Shown here piece after piece: positions 1-59,393 of a stretch of 64,000 nt of DNA. A model generated the notes under the pieces. The model had not been told where the DNA came from, did no database searches, and was given only the letters and a program-made list of their open reading frames with translations. The position numbers and the translations under genes are program-made. The stretch is from Nitrospira sp. (GTDB taxonomy: Bacteria; Nitrospirota; Nitrospiria; Nitrospirales; Nitrospiraceae): NCBI GenBank assembly GCA_024998625.1, contig JACOEL010000014.1, positions 1 to 64,000 of the forward strand, in the 5' to 3' direction. The stretch's first letter is position 1. Each line of letters begins with the position of its first letter.

Positions 1-115
1 TTGGCTCTTCGTCACGTGCGGCTTAACGAATCTGTTTCTGGCGCGCCGGCGCCTCTTGGCGGGAACGTAGGAGCCGGGTGTCCGCAGGGCGGCAGTGGGC
101 CATTGGACGGGGGGG

Positions 116-137
116 GTGAGCCCACAAAAAGGCTCAC
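116..137. other. hairpin, possible terminator or element-end structure
   Basis: A perfect 7-bp inverted repeat, GTGAGCC (116-122) and GGCTCAC (131-137), encloses an A-rich 8-base loop. No coding sequence is recognisable in the first 260 bases. There is no T-tract, so a terminator role is only a guess. Confidence 0.3.
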
Positions 138-267
138 GGACCAGCAGATTCTCACCGGATAGCCCAGAGTGTTCACCCCAGTAACTGGTTTCTCAGTGGA
201 AACGTGAATTAATCAGACCTTCCTTAGGTCAGAAATAATGGGTCAGGTCCCTTTTATGCTCCTCGCC

Positions 268-330
268 GCGTAACGCAGAGCTAGGCGGTGCGCTGCCGCT
301 TTGCGCGCTCGCTTGAACGAGTTGTTAGAC
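268..330 (-). other. integron attC recombination site (attC-A)
   Basis: On the minus strand the site opens with the R'' core GTCTAAC followed by AACTCGTTCAAGC, a very typical attC left arm. It closes with GTTACGC, a variant of the R' core GTTRRRY. The length (63 bp) is normal for attC. It sits directly at the 3' end of the antitoxin gene, as expected for a cassette whose gene reads on the minus strand. The right arm is degenerate, so it may recombine poorly. Confidence 0.7.
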
Positions 331-607
331 GTGATGATTTTTCTGTGAGCCGACCTGTCACGAATTTGTGTAACACACTGGCAATAAGTGTTTGATAAGG
401 CACGCCTTCCTCGGCCGCACGAGTTTGAATATCCATTAGGTCGGGGGAGGACAATCGAACATTGACCCTCCGGTTCTTGATGAATGTAGCCCGGGCCGCT
501 TCTTTGAAGTGTTTCAGTTCAGCCTTTGATGGAGCCATGGACTTAAAGTGGCCTTTCTCATAGTCTTCAGAAATTCGTTCTTCAAATGATTGTCTGCGCG
601 GTTTCAT
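281..607 (-). CDS. BrnA/CopG-like antitoxin of a type II toxin-antitoxin pair
   Basis: This 108-residue protein is predicted to bind and neutralise the toxin encoded just upstream and to repress their shared promoter. Residues about 35-85 (KNRRVNVRLSSPDLMDIQ, then a helix with PYQTLIASVLHKF) fit the ribbon-helix-helix antitoxins found beside BrnT-like toxins. Its ATG directly follows the toxin TAA with no spacer, so the two are probably translationally coupled. The last 16 or so residues are encoded by the attC-A site and its TAG stop lies inside that site. That tail is therefore likely a by-product of cassette structure, not a conserved part of the family. Confidence 0.75.
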   Translation of the reverse strand: MKPRRQSFEERISEDYEKGHFKSMAPSKAELKHFKEAARATFIKNRRVNVRLSSPDLMDIQTRAAEEGVPYQTLIASVLHKFVTGRLTEKSSRLTTRSSERAKRQRTA

Positions 608-886
608 TTACACACCACCTTTCAAGTAATCACGGGTCGCTTTTCTATTCGGAATCACCGTTTTAAGGAAGTAATACTCAGTCTCTTCTACAAATGGAAC
701 CAAGTAGGCATATTGCTCGATCGCTACCACAAACATTCGTTGTTGAGGATATTTGCTTGGGTTGGAGTGCACTATGATGTCGAGCAATCCGTCGGCTTCA
801 ATGGCAAGCACGATTTCCTCGAAGGATATATTCCGCTCAGCTTTCAGCTGTTCATTCTTCTCGTGGTTCCATCGAAATGGTTTCAT
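608..886 (-). CDS. BrnT-like toxin (predicted ribonuclease)
   Basis: This 92-residue protein resembles BrnT-family toxins, small RelE-like-fold ribonucleases that cut RNA when free of antitoxin. Supporting features are an N-terminal FRWNHEKNEQL stretch, the ISFEEIVLAIE helix, a central beta-sheet (RMFVVAIEQYAYLVPFVEE) and the C-terminal segment FLKTVIPNRKATRDY. That last segment matches the usual 'ISARKATRRER'-type end of the family. Toxin-first gene order is typical of BrnTA. The pair lies in an integron cassette context, where toxin-antitoxin modules are common stabilising cargo. The call rests on recognised sequence pattern only. Confidence 0.75.
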   Translation of the reverse strand: MKPFRWNHEKNEQLKAERNISFEEIVLAIEADGLLDIIVHSNPSKYPQQRMFVVAIEQYAYLVPFVEETEYYFLKTVIPNRKATRDYLKGGV

Positions 887-981
887 GCGTGCAGTCTATC
901 CGAATGTGTGCCTTCTGTCATCATCGTGAGACCCTCTGACCATTGACGGTTGACGAGTTTCGGATGCCGTATCTCAACGCT

Positions 982-1178
982 TCACGCTCCCGCTACCCCC
1001 TCCTCCCGAACCCTTCCCCCGTCATCACCTCCGCCACGTTCCGCCCGTTCACGAAGACATCGGCCAAGGTCCGACCGTAGGCATCGCGGCCGTGGGGAAC
1101 GATGTCGATGGTTTCTGCCTGCAACAGTTGCTCCAGACGAAGGGCAGCTTCTCGCCCGCCTGCTTGTTTGAAGCTCAT
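982..1178 (-). pseudogene. truncated duplicate of a thermonuclease-like gene (3' end only)
   Basis: About 60 codons match the C-terminus of the intact thermonuclease-like gene at 7830-8459, including GGREAALRLEQL, PHGRDAYGRTLADVFVNG and EVMTGEGFGRRG. About 180 bp are nearly identical at the DNA level, including sequence just past the stop. The N-terminal half with the signal peptide and the RxxG...PE catalytic segment is absent. The fragment is joined directly to the 3' end of the nitrilase pseudogene: its apparent ATG overlaps the nitrilase TGA. It is a dead copy produced by recombination. Confidence 0.8.
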
Positions 1179-1898
1179 TCGATCTCAGCAACAGCCATTC
1201 CAGTTGTCATCAGCGGCACCGGGGCGATTACCGCTCCGCTCGGATCGCTGATCGCCGTTGGTCCGTAAGAGATCCAGCCGTTCCGCTCTCTCGTGACGTC
1301 CTACGACAGGAGCCACATACCATTCTCTTGCGCGCGTTGGGATCTGATCTCGTTATGCCGAAGTTTCCATTGTTCGGCTGTCTTGCGAGGCGCCATATTA
1401 TGGCATGGGCAAGCTAATAGCTTGACTCCGGCGCGAGCGCCCGCTTTGACCGATTCATTGAATTCAAGTCGTAGCAAATATTGATTCCGAGCGTCGTGCC
1501 ACAACAGAAATCAAATACCGGATGGTCATCACCGGGTTGAAATATCGTCTGTTCGCTATCGAGAAGATGTGTCTTGCGATAGGCCGCGGCGAGGTTTCCA
1601 CTCTGTACGGTGACAGCTGAATGGAAGAACGTATTGCCAGTTCGTTCGATTGAACCAACGACCACCGTTGGTTCAAGATGTTTCAGGCTGCGGAGTACCC
1701 GATCGAATTCAGATGAGGTTAGAGCCACGGCTGCTTCGGCTATATATCCGTCATCCGGACAATACTCTTGAAGGAAGCACTCCGGGAAACAGGCCAAACT
1801 CGCGCCATGTCGTGTAGCGTGCGTCGCATAGGTATCTATGAGAGCGCCCGCGACACATCATTGTGGACATCAGGTAGTTGACAGGCGGCGATTTTCAT
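1175..1898 (-). pseudogene. nitrilase-superfamily carbon-nitrogen hydrolase, broken by frameshifts and a stop
   Basis: Reading all three minus-strand frames reconstructs a nitrilase: MKIAACQLPDVHNDVSRAL, then IDTYATHA...ACFPECFLQEY, YRKTHLL, GINICYDL, ESVKAGARAGVKLLACPCHN, QENGMWLLS and DVTRERNGWISYGPTAISD. The catalytic Glu, Lys and Cys positions of the family are still readable. There is a frameshift near 1845, another near 1465, and an in-frame TAG at 1301-1303. The gene is essentially full length (about 240 codons), so it decayed in place. Three lesions make sequencing error an unlikely sole cause. Confidence 0.8.
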
Positions 1899-2607
1899 AG
1901 CCGTGCGAGTTGCGACGAACGGTTTACATCATCTGCCTGCTGTTCGTTGAAAGCGTTATTAGGCCGATGACTACGTGTTGCTCTCCAGATAGCAGAGGTG
2001 CAGTTGCTCGCTACGCACGATAAGCGCTCTAACGCGGAGAGTTATGCGTGTCGGCTTCCTACGTCGCACAACGACGTGAGCCGCAAGATGAACCCTTGAC
2101 CTGCCCGCGGCGTTGCAGGTGTCCATCGTCCGACGTCGTTCGTTCATTTCCCTCCGGAACTCAAGCCCAATGGCTGCCGTGAATGTAACGCAACCCGCTG
2201 AAGCGCGAGTCTACGTTGAAATCCAACAGGTATCCAGGCCTTCGCCTGGTTACCCTCAGTATATCTTGTGACCCCTGCAGGCTATTCAGGGATCGGCCAA
2301 GCAGCATGGCGGCCACTTTTTCGAGTCTAGCTGGCTTAGGCAATGTGCGTAGGCATGGACCTGTATCAAGACGGATACGGAAGAGTATCGGAAGAGATAC
2401 GCCGTCACGCGGCATGTCTCAAGGACAGCGCAGCGCACCTCATGTTTTTGAGGAGTTTTCAGACTGGACTATCATGGCGGGCCGTTTGCAAGATCATGTT
2501 CACGAGTGATCGTATGTTCGGTAGGCCTTGCGCGGATGGATATCCGTACGTCGTCTTGCCGACCTCGCCCGCGCCGGTGCACGGGTATTTTTAGAAAGGA
2601 AGAAGCC
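1899..2607. other. intergenic stretch with one attC-like site
   Basis: Apart from the attC-D candidate at 2027-2098, no convincing gene is visible. A minus-strand reading frame of 84 codons (2161-2415) has the position expected for the gene of that cassette, but its composition is arginine- and leucine-rich and matches no family I recognise. I leave it uncalled. Confidence 0.4.
2027..2098 (-). other. probable integron attC site (attC-D)
   Basis: On the minus strand the site ends with CATAACTCTCCGCGTTAGAG, resembling the right arm and R' core (GTTAGAG) of attC. The centre is a strong hairpin: ACGTCG (2061-2066) pairs with CGACGT (2072-2077), and CGGCT (2052-2056) pairs with AGCCG (2079-2083). 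Unpaired bases between the stems are as expected for attC. The R'' core is degenerate, so the outer boundary is uncertain. Confidence 0.5.
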
Positions 2608-3558
2608 ATGATCGTTGTACATTCAACCGAGCTTGAGCAGATGAAAACGCTGGGTGAATTGGCCGAGCGGGCCCCAGTCATCCCCCGCTACCTGGAGGAG
2701 GTCGACCTGGCTCCGCTTGCGAGGGACGTTCGCGACTATGCCGGGCGAATGGGATATGCTGCGCAATTTCTCCATGAGTTCGATGTGCCGCACCCGACAC
2801 CGATCGGAGTCCGAGAACAGGACGTTGCCCCTCTGTTGAATGGATCCGATACGGAACTCAAGTACGAACATTTTTCCGTCGTGATGTCGAAGTCACGGCG
2901 GCTCGCCATCTATGTGGCCTGTAACATCGACGGCCGACGTTCGCAAAAAATCAAACGCGGCAAGGACCGCTGGAGCCTCGATCCGCGTATGGATCGGGAC
3001 TATCAGATCGGAGAAGAGCTCTACGCGGGCAACGAATTGGATCGTGGCCATCTGGTGCGGCGTGAAGATCCGGTGTGGGGCCTTAAGCATGAAGCGGCCG
3101 TTGCGAACGGAGACACCTTCCACTTCACCAATTGTTCCCCTCAGCATGAAAAGTTCAATCAACAAACCTGGCTGGGGCTCGAAGACTATATTCTGCGGAA
3201 CAGCCGTGCGCATAAATTGAAGGTCACCGTGTTTACGGGGCCGATTTTTCAGGACGACGATCCGGAATATCGCGGAGCACTCCTCCCGCGCCAGTATTGG
3301 AAGGTAGTCGCGGTGGTGTCCGATGGGAGGAAGTCGGCCACGGGCTATATGATCAGTCAATCGGAGTTGCTCGAACATCTGCGGGCCTTTGGGTTCGGCC
3401 GATACAAGACCTATCAGGTGAGCATCGACCAAATCGAGCGACTGACGGATTTGGACTTCGGCCCGCTGAAACACTATGACGGCTTCACCACCGAGGAAGC
3501 GCGCACCAGGCGGGCGATGCGGGCCGAGATTCGCTCCTGGAAAGACATTCGGGTCTGA
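2608..3558 (+). CDS. DNA/RNA non-specific endonuclease (NUC1/NucA family, DRGH motif)
   Basis: This 316-residue protein is predicted to be a sugar-non-specific, metal-dependent nuclease. The active-site motif DRGH lies in NELDRGHLVRREDP (about residues 147-160), followed by the metal-binding Asn region FTNCSPQHEKFNQQTWLGLE and the GPIF strand, in the family's order. The first 90 or so residues form an extra domain I do not recognise. No signal peptide is present, which is unusual because many family members are secreted. The ATG is preceded by AAGGAAG; an upstream in-frame start at 2506 lacks such a site. It lies 66 bp before a co-directional subtilase and the two may act together. Confidence 0.88.
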   Translation: MIVVHSTELEQMKTLGELAERAPVIPRYLEEVDLAPLARDVRDYAGRMGYAAQFLHEFDVPHPTPIGVREQDVAPLLNGSDTELKYEHFSVVMSKSRRLAIYVACNIDGRRSQKIKRGKDRWSLDPRMDRDYQIGEELYAGNELDRGHLVRREDPVWGLKHEAAVANGDTFHFTNCSPQHEKFNQQTWLGLEDYILRNSRAHKLKVTVFTGPIFQDDDPEYRGALLPRQYWKVVAVVSDGRKSATGYMISQSELLEHLRAFGFGRYKTYQVSIDQIERLTDLDFGPLKHYDGFTTEEARTRRAMRAEIRSWKDIRV

Positions 3559-3624
3559 GGCGTTTCGAGCGTTGTTTCATCGACGCACCATGTGCCAGCA
3601 CTCACATACGGGAGGAGGACGGCC

Positions 3625-5754
3625 ATGCCTGAACTTACAGAGGTGCGACTCGGCAAGAAGACAGAACCCCCGATCTTGCTCCGCAAAAGCGACGATCTGA
3701 TCGCAGTCCGGACCCGGTCGACACGATCCATCAAGGCCGGAGCGGTTCGAACCCCTGAGTCCGGAGAAGTGGCGGACGGACATCTCGTGTTCACGGTTCC
3801 CGAGGCCGGCGTCGAAATCTATCGCGTTCCTCCCGGGGCCGGGCGTCGATCATTGGAAAGTCGGAAAGAGGCACTTCGTGCGGCCGCCGATGTCCGGTTT
3901 GCCGGCGGCGTGATGGTGGATGAAAAATCCAGAGAGCCGGTGTTGTATACAGAAAACCTGTTTATCAAGTTTGTCGATGAGATGGACTTGGAGGACTGTC
4001 GGGCAGTGATCCGGGAGGCCGGCCTCACCATCAAGAAAGAGTTGACCTACGCCACCAACGCGTTTTTCGTCGGTGCGCCGGAGGGTACAGGCACCAGGGT
4101 TTTCGATACGGCGGCGTCGCTCTTGAATCGCACGGACGTCGAATATTGTCACCCGGAACTTGTCCGGCCGAAAGGCCGTCGCGTGATCGCCGTGGAGCAA
4201 TGGCATCTCAAAACCACCACGATCGACGGGACGGCGGTATCAGCCAGCGCCAACGTCGAGGCGGCGCATCAGGTCACCCAAGGGGAGGGAGTGGTGATCG
4301 CCGTCATAGATGACGGGGTTGATATCGACCATCCGGAGTTCAGCGGCGCAGGGAAGATCGTCGCGCCTCGCGACGCCAGTCTGGGCACGGGCGATCCACG
4401 GCCGAAGGATCCCCATCCGGCGTTCACGGAGGACCATGGCACCGCCTGCGCAGGCGTGGCATGCGCGGCCGGCCTCGTGCGTGCCTCCGGCGTGGCGCCG
4501 AAGGCCAAACTGATCCCGATCCGGCTGAGTTCGGCGCTCGGATCACAACAAGAGGCTGAGGCGTTCGAATGGGCCGCCAACAACGGCGCCGATGTGATTT
4601 CGTGCAGTTGGGGACCGGAGGACGGAGACTGGTGGAACCCGAACCATCCGGCACACAATCAGAAAGTGCCCATTCCCGCCAGCACGAAGCTGGCCGTTGA
4701 TTACGCGACGACCAAAGGACGGGGAGGGAAGGGGTGCGTGGTGCTCTTCGCCGCGGGGAACGGAAACGAGAGCGTGGATAACGACGGGTACGCGAGTTAC
4801 GAGCGCATCATCGCGGTGGCGGCTTGTAACGACCGTGGGAAGCGCAGTGTCTATAGCGATTTCGGCAAGGCCATCTGGTGCTCGTTTCCAAGCAGCGATC
4901 GAGGCCATGCACCGTTTCAGCATCCGGCTCCCCTCACGAAAGGAATATTCACGACAGATCGTGTGGGAGCGTCGGGCTATAATCCCGGAACGTCGGGGGC
5001 CGGCGACAATCGCGGGAACTACACGAACAGCTTCGGCGGAACATCCAGCGCCTGCCCTGGTGCGGCAGGCGTGGCCGCACTGGTGCTGTCGGTCAATCCA
5101 GAGTTGAAATGGCAGGAAGTGCGGGAAATTCTCAAGCAATCCTGCGACAAGATCGATCCGCAGGGCGGCAATTACACGGCAGAAGGGTGGAGCCGATTCT
5201 ACGGCTATGGCCGTCTCAATGCCGAGAAGGCTGTCGCCCTGGCCAAGCCGGGGACACAGAACCGCGTCCTTATCAGTCGCACATTCAACGAGCTCATTCC
5301 GGATCTCCAAATGGTGACGGTTTCGCTGGACGTGAATGACGCCACGCCGATCGAAAATTTGATTGTCCATCTTGATCTTGCGCACACGTATATCGGGGAT
5401 CTGGTCATTACCTTGATGCCGCCGACTGGTTTGAATCCGGCCAAGGTTGTTCTGCACGATCGAACAGGCGGTGCGACTCAGAATCTCAAGCGGACTTACG
5501 ACATGCTGGATACCCAGGCGTTGGCTCCGCTGAAGGGCAAGGGCCTGAAGGGAACGTGGACACTCGACATTGAAGACGCGGAGGCTCGGGACGAGGGGAC
5601 GTTGAGACAGTTCGGCCTCGAACTGGTCTTCGGCTCCGGCAGTCGGCGTGCGGAGGCCGCCCGAAGCACCGGTGCGATGAATCGTGGGAGACGAGCCGAA
5701 GCTGGTCGTGTGAGCAGGATGAGCAGCCGACGCGCGCCTTCGCGTCGAGCTTGA
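3625..5754 (+). CDS. subtilisin-like serine protease with C-terminal P domain
   Basis: This 709-residue S8-family peptidase has its catalytic triad visible as Asp in VIDDGVDIDHPEF, His in DHGTACAGVAC and Ser in FGGTSSACPGAAG. Residues about 1-200 form a long N-terminal region, including a likely inhibitor-type prodomain around residues 110-180. A proprotein-convertase P domain follows the catalytic domain (about residues 545-665: HTYIGDLVITLMPP, LKGTWTLDIED). The tail is rich in arginine, alanine and serine. No signal peptide is seen, so the enzyme is cytoplasmic or exported by another route. ATG 3625 has a GGAGGAGG site; a GTG at 3592 is possible but poorer. It is probably co-transcribed with the upstream endonuclease. 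Confidence 0.9.
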   Translation: MPELTEVRLGKKTEPPILLRKSDDLIAVRTRSTRSIKAGAVRTPESGEVADGHLVFTVPEAGVEIYRVPPGAGRRSLESRKEALRAAADVRFAGGVMVDEKSREPVLYTENLFIKFVDEMDLEDCRAVIREAGLTIKKELTYATNAFFVGAPEGTGTRVFDTAASLLNRTDVEYCHPELVRPKGRRVIAVEQWHLKTTTIDGTAVSASANVEAAHQVTQGEGVVIAVIDDGVDIDHPEFSGAGKIVAPRDASLGTGDPRPKDPHPAFTEDHGTACAGVACAAGLVRASGVAPKAKLIPIRLSSALGSQQEAEAFEWAANNGADVISCSWGPEDGDWWNPNHPAHNQKVPIPASTKLAVDYATTKGRGGKGCVVLFAAGNGNESVDNDGYASYERIIAVAACNDRGKRSVYSDFGKAIWCSFPSSDRGHAPFQHPAPLTKGIFTTDRVGASGYNPGTSGAGDNRGNYTNSFGGTSSACPGAAGVAALVLSVNPELKWQEVREILKQSCDKIDPQGGNYTAEGWSRFYGYGRLNAEKAVALAKPGTQNRVLISRTFNELIPDLQMVTVSLDVNDATPIENLIVHLDLAHTYIGDLVITLMPPTGLNPAKVVLHDRTGGATQNLKRTYDMLDTQALAPLKGKGLKGTWTLDIEDAEARDEGTLRQFGLELVFGSGSRRAEAARSTGAMNRGRRAEAGRVSRMSSRRAPSRRA

Positions 5755-5861
5755 TTCTGCGATTCATGAGCGTGGAATGAGGGACGGGTTGCCTGGGTAT
5801 CAGGAGAGGCAAAACCGACCGATCAAGGCTCTGGCAATGTGATCTGTTCTTGAAGTCTCGC

Positions 5862-5889
5862 GGCGGCGCCTCGACTTCAGGGCGCCGCC
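5862..5889 (+). terminator. strong GC hairpin downstream of the protease gene
   Basis: GGCGGCGCC (5862-5870) and GGCGCCGCC (5881-5889) form a perfect 9-bp stem with a 10-base loop, about 110 bp after the subtilase stop. A T-rich tail is weak, so this may be a terminator or only a structured remnant. Confidence 0.45.
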
Positions 5890-6032
5890 AATCCCGTTCT
5901 TCCCAGGTTCATGCGGAGCTGACAAGGAAGAGTGAAGGTCTTTGTGGCGGACCCTGTTCGGATGGGATCGCACGCTGATGGAGAATCAAGGGAGCCACTT
6001 TTATTCCCTCGTGCAAGAATTCGATGACGGGG

Positions 6033-6205
6033 GTGTCCTATCAACGCCTCTGTCGGGCGGGTAAGGCGAAGAAGCTGGCATTGACCGTCTGCATGCAGAA
6101 GCTACTCACGATTCTCAATGTGATGATGAAGAGTGGCACGCCGTGGCAGCGTGACTGCGGGTGAGTGCACTTGACAGTCAAACCAGTTGCTGGCCGTGCA
6201 CTCAC
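6033..6205 (+). mobile_element. IS110-family transposase C-terminal remnant with element end
   Basis: The frame from 6033 to the TGA at 6162-6164 reads YQRLCRAGKAKKLALTVC, then QKLLTILNVMMKSGTPW. This is the conserved C-terminus of IS110/IS1111-type DEDD transposases. Only the last 43 or so codons remain. Just past the stop, GTGAGTGCAC (6161-6170) and GTGCACTCAC (6196-6205) form a perfect 10-bp inverted repeat, possibly the element end. Some IS1111 relatives insert specifically in attC sites, which fits its place beside attC-B. Confidence 0.75.
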
Positions 6206-6222
6206 TTTGCGCCATCAGTCTC

Positions 6223-6419
6223 TTACTCCACAACCTCAAGGTCCTTTCGCATAGCCGCCATGAGATCGTCGTGAGCATTCGTTCGCCCATTCGATCCGGG
6301 CTCGCTCGCTTTCAGGCGCTTGAGGGCGTCGACCGTGACCGACGACGCGACCAATTGCACCTTGATCTCCCATAGGGCGAACTGCTTGGCCTTCTCATCA
6401 GACCAGCCTTCTGTTAACG
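6223..6419 (-). pseudogene. fragment of a cassette gene of unknown function, start codon missing
   Basis: The minus-strand frame reads TEGWSDEKAKQFALWEIKVQ, then VASSVTVDALKRL, AHDDLMAAMRKDLEVVE and a TAA at 6223. Its composition is convincingly protein-like. No ATG, GTG or TTG occurs in frame between the preceding stop and the coding stretch, which begins right at the cut point of attC-B. It looks like a third cassette whose start was lost at the recombination junction or by an indel. I recognise no family. Confidence 0.4.
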
Positions 6420-6475
6420 TTCATCGTGAGGGACGCGCCGTAAGCGGCGCGCCCCTCTCGACTGTGCTGTTAGAT
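6412..6475 (-). other. integron attC recombination site (attC-B)
   Basis: The outer cores are GTTAGAT (6469-6475, R'' on the minus strand) and TGTTAAC (6412-6418, R'). The interior folds into GCGCCG-taag-CGGCGC, extended by GAGGG/CCCTC and TCG/CGA stems with single extra bases on one side. Extrahelical bases in an otherwise near-perfect palindrome are the signature of attC. This is one of the two clearest sites in the window. Confidence 0.85.
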
Positions 6476-6945
6476 GCCCAATCCTCCGCTGCGATGTGCA
6501 CACCGATACCCTCCTCCTTGAGAATATGGCAGAACGATGGCACATGGTTGGCTCCGCAAACGAATAGAACTGGCCACAAGTTGAGACTGCGGAGCTGCTT
6601 AAGCCAATACCGTTCGCGCTTTGCGTGACTTTCGGCGACGCGCGCTCCAACCTCTGATTCGGACAAAGTGGAAGGGAAGGCCGAGATACGGATATCGTTC
6701 TCCTGGCGGATTTCAAATTTGGCTCTTTCTATCCTGTTTGGATCGCAAAACCGGTGCGGTATCTGCAATGCATTAGCGACTCGCATCGGAATGGATGCGG
6801 CGCAGTTGTTCTCGGCAAGAGCCTCCTCGTTCATTTCTTCGGCCACCGCTTGGATCTTGAACTCTTGGCACAAGCTCTTCAGAAAGGTCTGTAGCGCCAA
6901 ATCGGCTGTCTGAATCGTGGGACTTGTTCCAACAACAATAACCAT
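6421..6945 (-). CDS. hypothetical protein in an integron cassette
   Basis: This 174-residue protein is of unknown function. It starts MVIVVGTSPTIQTADLALQ and has a conserved-looking core (IPMRVANALQIPHRFCDP, then KRERYWLKQL and WPVLFVCGANHVPSF, HILKEEGIGVHIAAEDW). The alternation of beta strands with the GANHVPSF loop suggests an alpha/beta enzyme-like fold, but I cannot name it. The last 15 residues (STVERGAPLTARPSR) are encoded by attC-B, so the natural protein probably ends near AEDW. It has no signal peptide or membrane segment. Confidence 0.65.
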   Translation of the reverse strand: MVIVVGTSPTIQTADLALQTFLKSLCQEFKIQAVAEEMNEEALAENNCAASIPMRVANALQIPHRFCDPNRIERAKFEIRQENDIRISAFPSTLSESEVGARVAESHAKRERYWLKQLRSLNLWPVLFVCGANHVPSFCHILKEEGIGVHIAAEDWASNSTVERGAPLTARPSR

Positions 6946-6964
6946 GGGAGGGCGGGAGTTGGGC

Positions 6965-7033
6965 GTCTAACGTTGAAGTTGAGCCGCAGTCTGAGACTTG
7001 CCGAGAGCTGTCAGCTCGAACGACTGGTTAGAA
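6965..7033 (-). other. integron attC recombination site (attC-C)
   Basis: On the minus strand it begins TTCTAACCAGTCGTTCGAGC and ends GCGGCTCAACTTCAAC followed by the core GTTAGAC. Both arms are close to textbook attC arms and are imperfectly complementary to each other. The 69-bp length is normal. It lies 8 bp past the restored stop of the next upstream cassette gene, the standard arrangement. Confidence 0.85.
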
Positions 7034-7040
7034 CTCGCCT

Positions 7041-7549
7041 TCACTTCAGCAGCGCCCCGAGGATTGACCCTACAAGGCCACCGGCGGCCCCGCAAGAGCG
7101 ATCCACCAACGCTTGTCTTTTTGATGCTCAAGCGCACGTGAATGCATATTGACAGCTGTATCAACCAGTGCCTTGATGTTCGTAGACGAAAGCGGGACAC
7201 GGGAAACTCGAAGTTGCTGCTCTGAGGTCAGAGCGCTGTATTCAGCACTCGTTAGAACTCTCTCCGCATCAACGTCATACCGCTTTGGAAATTGACGCCG
7301 CCATACCAAGGACGCCTTCGCTCTCGCAGAGTCGAGTCGGAAAAATTCCGGATGTTCAATGAAAACAGCCTTCCATTTTTCCGCTTGCGCTTCATCGGCG
7401 GACATAAGGTCAGCCCAACCGGGAAAAGGCAACTTGTAGAACTTGTATGTAGCCATGGTTTGGATCGCAGCAATGACATCGCCAAGCCGATTCGTATCTC
7501 GCAAATATGGCGAGAGGGCGGTCTTTTCTGTATTCCATGGAAGGCGCAT
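7041..7549 (-). pseudogene. cassette protein with frameshifted C-terminal membrane tail
   Basis: The open frame runs from ATG 7549 to a stop at 7070 (159 residues) and ends in KRWWIALAG then out-of-frame residues. Adding one G to the run near 7085 restores AAGGLVGSILGALLK and a stop at 7041. That is a glycine-zipper-like hydrophobic tail placed exactly before attC-C. The restored protein (about 169 residues) would be a soluble domain with a C-terminal membrane anchor. No family is recognised. The lesion is a single-base loss in GGGG, so either recent inactivation or an assembly error is possible. Confidence 0.65.
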
Positions 7550-7554
7550 AAGAG

Positions 7555-7613
7555 TTCTAACTATGTATTATCTGGTTCCGTATAAGATGCCAATTGCCTT
7601 GTGACGTTGGATA
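7555..7613 (-). other. possible cassette boundary: attI-like or degenerate attC
   Basis: The minus strand has GTTAGAA (7555-7561), a good R' core, 6 bp before the ATG of the 7549 gene. A possible R'' (ATCCAAC on the minus strand) lies near 7613. No convincing hairpin joins them. That would suit an attI site, which needs no hairpin, or a decayed attC. No integrase gene is found upstream. Confidence 0.35.
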
Positions 7614-7723
7614 AGACCCGTACGCTATCCTGGCAGGATAGCGACCGAAGTCCAAGTGGTTTCTCGACGGTTCTTCTCTGCATCTCATTTACACCGGGTC
7701 TTATCTGGTTCTGTATAAGACCC
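7568..7723. repeat. structured intergenic block with direct and inverted repeats
   Basis: A 20-bp unit, TTATCTGGTTCCGTATAAGA, occurs at 7568-7587 and again with one change at 7701-7720. The second copy is the core of a perfect 9-bp inverted repeat, GGGTCTTAT/ATAAGACCC (7696-7704, 7715-7723). Between them is another perfect palindrome, CGCTATCCTG-G-CAGGATAGCG (7623-7643). No gene lies here. The block separates the cassette array from the thermonuclease gene. Confidence 0.6.
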
Positions 7724-7829
7724 TCGCCGTACATTGACTTCATAGGACATTAGCCTGGCTACGGATTCCGTCCGAGACGCGATTCAGCACATGTGACGAA
7801 TGACGGTGTTCCTGTGGTTCACGCTCCCG

Positions 7830-8459
7830 CTACCCCCTCCTTCCGAACCCTTCTCCCGTCATCACCTCCGCCACGTTCTGCCCGTTCACGAAGACATCGG
7901 CCAGGGTCCGGCCGTAGACATCGCGGCCGTGGGGGACGATGTTGATGATTCCTTCTTGCATCAGTTGCTCCAGCCGAAGGGCAGCTTCTCGTCCGCCTGC
8001 TTCCGACAACTCCGGGGCGTTGTAGCCGCGAATACGGATGCGATCGGTGCCGTAGCGGATCGTGTCGCCATCGACGGTGCGGACTTGCCAGGATTCTACG
8101 GTCCGCTCAAAACTTCCCACCGACAGTGCGTGACGCGGAAGAGACCGAAGGCCGCGGCTATGAAACCGAGATTTTTTCGCAAAGGGATTCTTGTGCGGCC
8201 GCGGGCCTCGTTCATGGTGCCCACGCCGATACCGTGGTGTCTGATGTTGCGGCAGCGGCTGACGTTCCTCCGGTTTCAATCCCCAACATTCGTTGCAGTG
8301 GAATGGCCCGGGGTCATTGGTGGCGGCAGGCGTATAGGTGTGCAGCGTGGAACGGCTTTCTTCCACGGCAGTGACGGCTGGCGGGGCGGGTGAGGCGACC
8401 AAGAACAGCAGTGTGAGTCGGCTGAGCAGGCGGGAAACACGTTCGTTTCTGTGCAGCAT
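7830..8459 (-). CDS. exported thermonuclease-like (SNase domain) protein
   Basis: This 209-residue protein is predicted to be an exported nuclease of the staphylococcal nuclease fold. The SNase domain fills the last 85 or so residues: VDGDTIRYG, RIRIRGYNAPE (catalytic Arg and Glu) and GRDVYGRTLADVFVNGQNV (second Arg). The N-terminus has a signal-like segment (RLTLLFLVASPAPPAVTA) followed by a proline- and basic-rich spacer containing a CNEC pair. ATG 8459 has GGAGG about 9 bases upstream. A near-identical 3' fragment lies at 982-1178, so this gene was partly duplicated across the cassette region. Confidence 0.8.
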   Translation of the reverse strand: MLHRNERVSRLLSRLTLLFLVASPAPPAVTAVEESRSTLHTYTPAATNDPGPFHCNECWGLKPEERQPLPQHQTPRYRRGHHERGPRPHKNPFAKKSRFHSRGLRSLPRHALSVGSFERTVESWQVRTVDGDTIRYGTDRIRIRGYNAPELSEAGGREAALRLEQLMQEGIINIVPHGRDVYGRTLADVFVNGQNVAEVMTGEGFGRRG

Positions 8460-8579
8460 GGAAAGATGTCCTCCGGATATTCGTTGCCAGACGAAGCATG
8501 CTCCATGCCACAACTACGGCGCAAGTATCCCACGGTTGACAAGCCGAAAAACCGCGTGCTCAAATGCCTTCCGTTGAAG

Positions 8580-8647
8580 AGCGTATGGCTAATGGCCAAT
8601 AGCGAATAGTTGGAATTTTCCTGAGCTCGTACCATAAGCCATACGCT
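8580..8647. repeat. inverted repeat upstream of a small gene
   Basis: AGCGTATGGCT (8580-8590) and AGCCATACGCT (8637-8647) are perfect 11-bp inverted repeats about 46 bp apart, just before the gene at 8698. It may be a short mobile palindrome or a regulatory site; nothing shows which. Confidence 0.45.
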
Positions 8648-58656: not shown

Positions 58657-58734
58657 GGTGGGTGTAGCTCAGCTGGTTAGAGCGCCGGATTGTGGATCCG
58701 GAGGTCGCGGGTTCGAAACCCGTCACTCACCCCA
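58657..58734 (+). tRNA. tRNA-His (anticodon GTG)
   Basis: The acceptor stem GTGGGTG pairs with CACTCAC, with an extra 5' G (position -1) facing the discriminator C, the special mark of tRNA-His. The anticodon loop is TTGTGGA with anticodon GTG. The T arm is GCGGGTTCGAAACCCGT and CCA is encoded. The 3' half is also read on the opposite strand as the end of an integrase gene. Confidence 0.96.
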
Positions 58735-59090
58735 ACCCTTCTCTCCGTAAATACTGGATACTCCACACGATCTGACGACGCGGGCATGATCACCGGTTGC
58801 GGTGGTTGCGCCGGGGTTGCGGATTGGGCCCCGGCAAACCATGCCGCGGCTGGAGTATCGAGCCGATCTACTGCCTGTTTGTTGCCTCCCGGGATCAGGT
58901 GTCCGTACAGATCCACCGTCACTTGAATCGAGGAATGTCCCATCTGCTCTTTCACGTACACCGGGCTTTCGCCTTGCTGCAGTAGGAGTGAGGCGAACGT
59001 ATGCCGGAGGTCGTGAAACCTCACTTTCCTGAGGGTGGCCTTCGTCGAGAGGAGTCGTAAGACTTTTGCCCGTGTGATCGGAGTGATGTG
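58677..59090 (-). pseudogene. tyrosine recombinase (phage-type integrase), N-terminal truncated
   Basis: Only the catalytic C-terminal part remains: RFHDLRHTFASLLLQQGESP, VYVKEQMGHSSIQVTVDLYG and HLIPGGNKQAVDRL, containing the R/H-x-x-R, H and Tyr of the family. The upstream part ends at a stop near 59090, so about two thirds of the protein is lost. The last 20 or so codons are antisense to the tRNA-His 3' half, the classic arrangement when an element integrates in a tRNA gene. It marks an attachment site. Confidence 0.85.
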
Positions 59091-59393
59091 ATGTCAGCGT
59101 GGAACCTTCGGCAAGAACTTTTCTGGCTTCAACGCAACATTGGGTTCTGTATCCGTTTCGATACCTAGGTTATTGATTGAGATACTTTCCCCTGCCTGTT
59201 CTTCTTCCACTAGACCTTCTTTGATCTCGAACCTTGGGCGAAATCGATGCAAACCCGAGTTTCCCTTCACGGCACACGCCTTGCTCATATACGTGTTCGA
59301 GTCAAGGTGCTGCATATCGACTCTTTAATGCGCCGCGCATAGCGCAAGCAGTGGACAGACGGTAGCCGGCGTGGGCATTGCACGGAGGATCTC
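59091..59393. other. intergenic stretch in an old integrated element
   Basis: No supported gene. A minus-strand frame (59094-59315, 73 codons ending EPNVALKPEKFLPKVPR) is weakly protein-like but has no good start signal and no recognised family. The base composition is more AT-rich than the core genome. Confidence 0.35.

Follow-up and report, generated by a model that had tools for sequence, protein, structure and literature searches.

Integrons are bacterial gene-capture systems in which the integron integrase (IntI) recombines an attI site with the folded bottom strand of attC sites. In Xanthomonas, the integrase gene (intI) of the integron at ilvD is often inactivated by a frameshift, a stop or a large deletion with the cassettes left in place (PMC12444791), and in the chromosomal integrons of Treponema, for which losses within the genus are reported, the integrase reads toward attI (PMC3607928). 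Within Nitrospira, two clusters of attC sites lacking integron integrases (CALINs) were reported in Candidatus Nitrospira inopinata by IntegronFinder 2.0 (PMC9024848), and the origins proposed for CALINs include the loss of intI (PMC8618304). Here, we analyze a cassette array at the start of a contig of Nitrospira sp. (assembly GCA_024998625.1, 4.42 Mb in 37 contigs; contig JACOEL010000014.1, here C8), whose first 64 kb constitute the window examined throughout. From its sequence, we propose with a probability of about 0.93 that the array represents the in-place beheading of a sedentary chromosomal integron, in which intI was lost in situ and attI and the cassettes were retained. A preliminary description of this DNA had regarded the array as detached from its integrase.

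An attI site and the tip of an integrase gene at the head of the array

The minus strand of the window carries in succession an SNase-domain gene (7830–8513; PF00565 above its cut-off), which serves as the chromosomal anchor and has its 3′ end toward the integron, the 3′ stub of an intI gene (7740–7793), and an attI site (7557–7739) that separates the integrase stop codon from the first cassette. The preliminary description had reported no integrase gene in the window, and indeed no intact one is present, but this intI end lies just beyond the region it had covered. The stub, reading HVLNRVSDGIRSQANVL followed by a stop, aligned codon by codon with the intI ends of three related genomes, G221, G222, and G227 (HVLNRGPHGVRSPADVL and stop), with the stop at the same position. 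Since the stub is in register with the intI ends of the relatives and shares their stop codon, the integrase appears to have been deleted in place. In the window, attI directly follows the intI stop codon and has the adjacency to intI characteristic of a complete integron, and of the intact intI that such an element would carry, just the last 17 codons and the stop are left. In the rest of the genome, no IntI match was obtained at E ≤ 1e-30, the best partial integrase match reaching 79.7 bits against a cut-off of 265 bits. With only 17 IntI codons left and no other IntI found in the genome, cassettes would be expected to be neither captured nor excised any longer.

The attI assignment was examined with a hidden Markov model built from six copies in other genomes, leaving out the window copy. 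This model matched window positions 7745–7557 with 174.8 bits (E = 1.8e-51) and also matched, with 39.6 bits, directly behind the intact intI of G123, a genome of another family (L020/L045). Across 11 aligned attI copies, the sequence is common as far as GTTA and divergent beyond, a break that fits the expectation for an attI crossover; in the window, the crossover box GTTAGAA occupies 7556–7562 on the minus strand, at the start of the first cassette. In a DNA search using window positions 1–8600 as the query against 29 genomes of the genus, the segment 7557–7793 was recurrent, its matches starting at 7556–7558, and its counterpart in G221 starts within the last codons of the integrase gene adjoining the SNase gene. 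Examined as a further attC, the same segment scored 2.9 bits at best. Two direct copies of TCTTATAC(A/G)GAACCAGATAA were also observed within attI (7567–7588 and 7699–7722), the one adjoining the intI stop being a palindrome with a 9-bp stem; by analogy with the direct repeats of attI1, these may be integrase binding sites. A search for promoters and terminators in attI returned no consensus match, and no sigma-70 consensus match was detected in 7400–8000, where a conserved pair resembling TTGGAC-18-AGGATA was seen by eye only.

attC sites and their cassettes

For the detection of attC sites, we built a covariance model (R1) from 27 attC sites that neighbor integrase genes in other genomes of the Nitrospirota, the window sequence being excluded; the training sites were gathered with a box-and-stem scorer and subsequently aligned, a design that avoids circularity. 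The resulting stem is strongly covarying, with changes on both sides in 13 of 20 pairs and 90% of the stem cells paired versus 75% in shuffles. When R1 was run on both strands of the 64 kb with filters off, 6965–7033, 268–330, and 6412–6475 were the top three matches, all on the minus strand, and the fourth match was at chance level (12.7 bits, E = 1.2). The preliminary description had proposed four attC sites sharing one orientation, a proposal to be abandoned if a covariance model found fewer than two; the three recovered here exceed that limit and do share their orientation, whereas the remaining candidate, at 2027–2098, is not supported. The latter produced no R1 match when the entire window was searched at E ≤ 10, and a maximum of 6.8 bits in a 451-bp local search, with its R boxes paired around a tiny loop, and it exhibits a single good R box (GTTAGAG) and nothing else resembling an attC.

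The strongest site, the attC of cassette B at 6965–7033 (48.6 bits, E = 1.8e-8), is a textbook attC bearing R boxes, extrahelical C and A at their customary spacing, six bases apart, and canonical spacers. It also ranked first in the window with the box-and-stem scorer, a tool separate from R1, and was followed there by 268–330, the attC of a toxin–antitoxin cassette (28.3 bits, E = 4.8e-4). The stem of this second site is partly decayed, with mismatches in the inner stem, and its orthologs score 22.4 bits in G127 and 31.8 bits in G227. The weaker site at 6412–6475 (19.4 bits, E = 0.041) is placed where cassette A requires an attC, and its stem sequence is similar to that of the attC beside the G157 integrase (L022 2632–2696). 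The attC sites of cassettes A and B are separated by 0.5 kb, and 268–330 lies 6 kb off. A genome-wide R1 search of the best candidates yielded a sole further match with E ≤ 1, a lone attC of 29.9 bits on another contig (G000:C3:16216–16329, i.e., L161 8217–8330), directly behind a gene of 285 aa.

The genes associated with these sites are encoded on the minus strand. Cassette B, the first of the array, holds an intact open reading frame of 159 aa (7070–7549) whose ATG is situated 7 bp beyond the crossover box, and cassette A holds another of 174 aa (6421–6945) with its stop codon within its own attC. Neither protein belongs to a family in Pfam or NCBIfam, and PADLOC gave a single weak match, for cassette B (E = 4.6e-4). 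The third cassette comprises a BrnT-like toxin gene (608–886; PF04365, E = 2.7e-6, below cut-off) and a BrnA/CopG-like antitoxin gene (281–607; PF12441, E = 1.2e-5, below cut-off), the end of which overlaps its own attC. Judging from dN/dS ratios (nonsynonymous to synonymous substitution rates) of 0.06–0.17 and from their conservation in G127 and G227, these two genes are under purifying selection: the toxin gene gave 0.17 against G127, and the antitoxin gene 0.06 and 0.13 against G127 and G227, respectively. The cassette genes, including the toxin–antitoxin pair, look intact. Each of the three cassettes therefore consists of one or two genes plus an attC, all in one orientation, as is characteristic of integron cassettes, and the earlier statement that minus-strand genes end at or inside the sites holds for 6421–6945, 7070–7549, and the pair at 281–886.

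The SNase locus in related genomes

The SNase gene region (7830–8600) was present, by DNA match, in nearly all of the 29 genomes searched. Integron sequences beside it were found at diverse stages of preservation: G221 harbors a nearly full-length yet frameshifted intI with attI and attC and, in addition, another intI tip and attI; G222 and G223 harbor intI stubs of about 63 and 45 codons, respectively, each with attI and attC; G139 retains an intI stub of about 60 codons; and G227 contains two pieces of intI, three copies each of attI and attC, and the toxin–antitoxin cassette known from the window. This cassette was also found in G127 together with a second attC, in a locus where neither attI nor intI could be detected. 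Hence, attI, intI or a strong attC stands beside the SNase gene in the present genome (G000) and in G221, G222, G227, G223, G139, and G127, as would be expected of a fixed locus, and G216, G143, and G055 each exhibit one weak attC in the right place and orientation (E = 0.006–0.02). No intact intI was found at the SNase locus in the genomes compared, and intact copies occur at other sites within the genus, in G139, G221, and G227. The differing breakpoints of the intI relics suggest several independent losses. A solitary attI copy was also observed in G139 (L160 10109–10300; G139:C1 about 1125108); neither an integrase match nor an attC was found up to 9 kb to its left or right.

Orientation and domain composition of Nitrospirales integrases

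Integron integrases above the curated cut-off were detected in 37 of 198 genomes of the phylum and in 18 of 175 genomes of the family. In all nine Nitrospirales intI loci with attC in reach (L018, L019, L021, L058, L060, L064, L065, L066, and L073), the array lies 3′ of intI on the same strand, an arrangement opposite to that of class 1 integrons. Many Nitrospirales integron integrases additionally carry an extra N-terminal, HARP-like domain of approximately 70 aa (L018, L019, L020, L058–L063, L065–L068, L070, L071, L073, and L074; also L151 3052–3260, plus strand). PF07443 (HARP) was matched by five of seven members, with a best E value of 3.7e-4 that is below the gathering score; eight intI loci from the other classes in the phylum yielded no such domain, and a sequence comparison with solved structures returned no meaningful match. 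In other proteins, HARP domains bind branched DNA, and this link is suggestive, by analogy, in an enzyme that recombines folded hairpins. We give about even chances to the broader proposal of a distinct Nitrospirales integron lineage, with a HARP-like-fused integrase reading toward the array, that was inactivated several times independently at the SNase locus of the genus by 5′ deletions sparing the intI tip, attI, and cassettes, which would thereby have become fixed host genes.

The distal part of the array

Beyond cassettes A and B, the array is interrupted by a protease/nuclease block and decayed genes, as the preliminary description had stated, and by pieces of insertion sequences (IS). 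A repeat present at many places in Nitrospira genomes (6030–6200, plus strand) could by eye be a transposase relic; for 6033–6161 as a transposase, Pfam supports no family. It is followed by an inserted block oriented opposite to the array (2264–5793, plus strand), which contains an Endonuclease_NS gene (2506–3558) and a subtilase gene (3592–5754). This 3.5-kb block is 91% identical in DNA to G139:C1:3048251–3051775, situated some 4 kb away from the SNase gene in that genome, and its Endonuclease_NS and subtilase/P-domain genes (2506–5754) are adjacent and kept in G139, with dN/dS of 0.17 and 0.07. On the minus strand, next comes a carbon–nitrogen hydrolase pseudogene (1178–1905; PF00795 on 1414–1797, E = 2.5e-15), its frame being broken as read from the sequence, and then a second copy of the 3′ end of the SNase gene (981–1165, 185 bp), 92% identical to 7818–8002, whose flank matches the junction between the SNase gene and the toxin–antitoxin cassette in G127. 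Partial copies of this 3′ end located 2–7 kb downstream of the full gene were observed in three genomes (window 981–1165; L140 3475–3557; L155 4237–4353), as if it were a repeated point of integration or recombination.

The window opens inside an IS5-like element with a DDE transposase, whose 3′ end spans 1–231 (minus strand) and whose remainder is cut off by the contig break; a full copy of the same IS, encoding a DDE_Tnp_1/DUF772 transposase, lies beside an attC in a G139 array. The same IS end occurs near the starts of many contigs (window 1–231, C5, C7, C10, C14, C19, C25, C27, and C32), and the assembly probably breaks at copies of this one IS. Far from the array, a decayed tyrosine-recombinase gene with one internal TGA (58658–59099) adjoins a tRNA gene and is likely the remnant of an integrated element. 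A scan of the window with Rfam returned nothing beyond one tRNA.

Origin of the array

In the ancestral order, the SNase gene, intI transcribed toward attI, attI, and the cassettes would all have been on the minus strand. A deletion of about 1.1 kb would then have taken the intergenic gap and intI except for its last 17 codons, joining the SNase 3′ flank to the stub, while attI stayed in order with the two leading cassettes, B and A, each made up of one gene and one attC. Farther out, the array would have been broken by the nuclease/protease block, the decayed hydrolase gene, and the second SNase 3′ end, beyond which the toxin–antitoxin cassette with its attC and the IS at the contig end would have remained. 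Without IntI, the cell's own machinery would no longer excise or capture cassettes, leaving a frozen gene cluster whose cassettes would be fixed and behave like ordinary genes, perhaps with transcription still arriving from the direction of attI, and mobilization in trans could occur if a foreign IntI entered. Several points weigh against this reconstruction: the intI stub is short, so that its identification owes more to its continuity with attI than to the score it attains by itself; the attC of cassette A attains no better than E = 0.041 over the 64 kb and departs from the consensus in its R′ box; an older inactivating event may be common to some of the intI relics; and the contig begins inside an IS element, which places the far end of the array out of view.

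With sites scored by R1, the window would be called a CALIN under the IntegronFinder rule (at least two attC close together and no intI nearby), and such a cluster could also have arisen through off-target insertion of cassettes by an IntI elsewhere or through rearrangement away from an integron. The lone attC on contig C3 shows that this genome does hold single cassettes at other places. For cassettes A and B, however, this origin is contradicted by an array that begins at an attI joined to the 3′ end of the integrase itself, in the very locus where relatives carry integrase relics, and we regard it as very improbable. Since the array is joined to its own attI and to the tip of its own integrase, it is not detached; what endures of the earlier view is that a Nitrospira-type genome carries a cassette array lacking a working integrase. 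Still less credible, to the point of being negligible, is the idea that palindromes arising by chance in GC-rich DNA account for the attC-like hairpins: 6412–6475 taken alone is marginal and 2027–2098 fails the model, but the top three matches of 64 kb form a single cluster next to an attI, share the same strand, and are each placed at a gene's 3′ end.

An arrangement that refines rather than contradicts loss of intI in place is that of two tandem integron units, one with attI and cassettes B and A by the full SNase gene and the other with the toxin–antitoxin cassette by the second SNase 3′ end, joined via recombination or uptake of a relative's allele. Given the 92% identity of 981–1165 to 7818–8002 and its G127-like flank, the window seems to hold two former junctions between SNase gene and integron in tandem; G224 and G018 likewise have further pieces of the SNase 3′ end close by, and G227 and G221 have additional copies of attI. 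Local duplication with later divergence would leave much the same picture; on balance, we lean somewhat toward the tandem units.

Comparison with known systems

To our knowledge, most CALINs are untraceable to an origin. At this locus, the surviving attI and integrase tip let the route, in-place loss of intI, be read directly, and the relatives provide intermediate stages of decay at the same locus. Nitrospira carry out nitrification, and integrons are commoner among them than the two CALINs from complete genomes had suggested; the phylum-specific attC model and the attI model can now be used to find more.

The kind of system described here is already known, and it is the lineage and the locus that are new, namely the SNase locus with its attI, the tip of the integrase gene as proof of in-place loss, and the series of decay stages across the genus. 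As in the CALINs of Candidatus Nitrospira inopinata, at least two attC occur without a neighboring integrase gene in Nitrospira, whereas an attI and an integrase stub are kept here, and their retention identifies in-place loss of intI among the proposed CALIN origins. The Treponema integrons likewise have an integrase transcribed toward the array, in an unrelated host; the extra HARP-like N-terminal domain is described here for Nitrospirales integrases. The closest parallel is the integron at ilvD in Xanthomonas, which, like the present one, is ancestral and occupies one chromosomal locus across its genus. In contrast to it, the locus in the window belongs to another phylum, is anchored at an SNase gene, has an intI transcribed toward the array, and retains just the 3′ tip of that gene; it is the Nitrospira counterpart of the decayed Xanthomonas integron.
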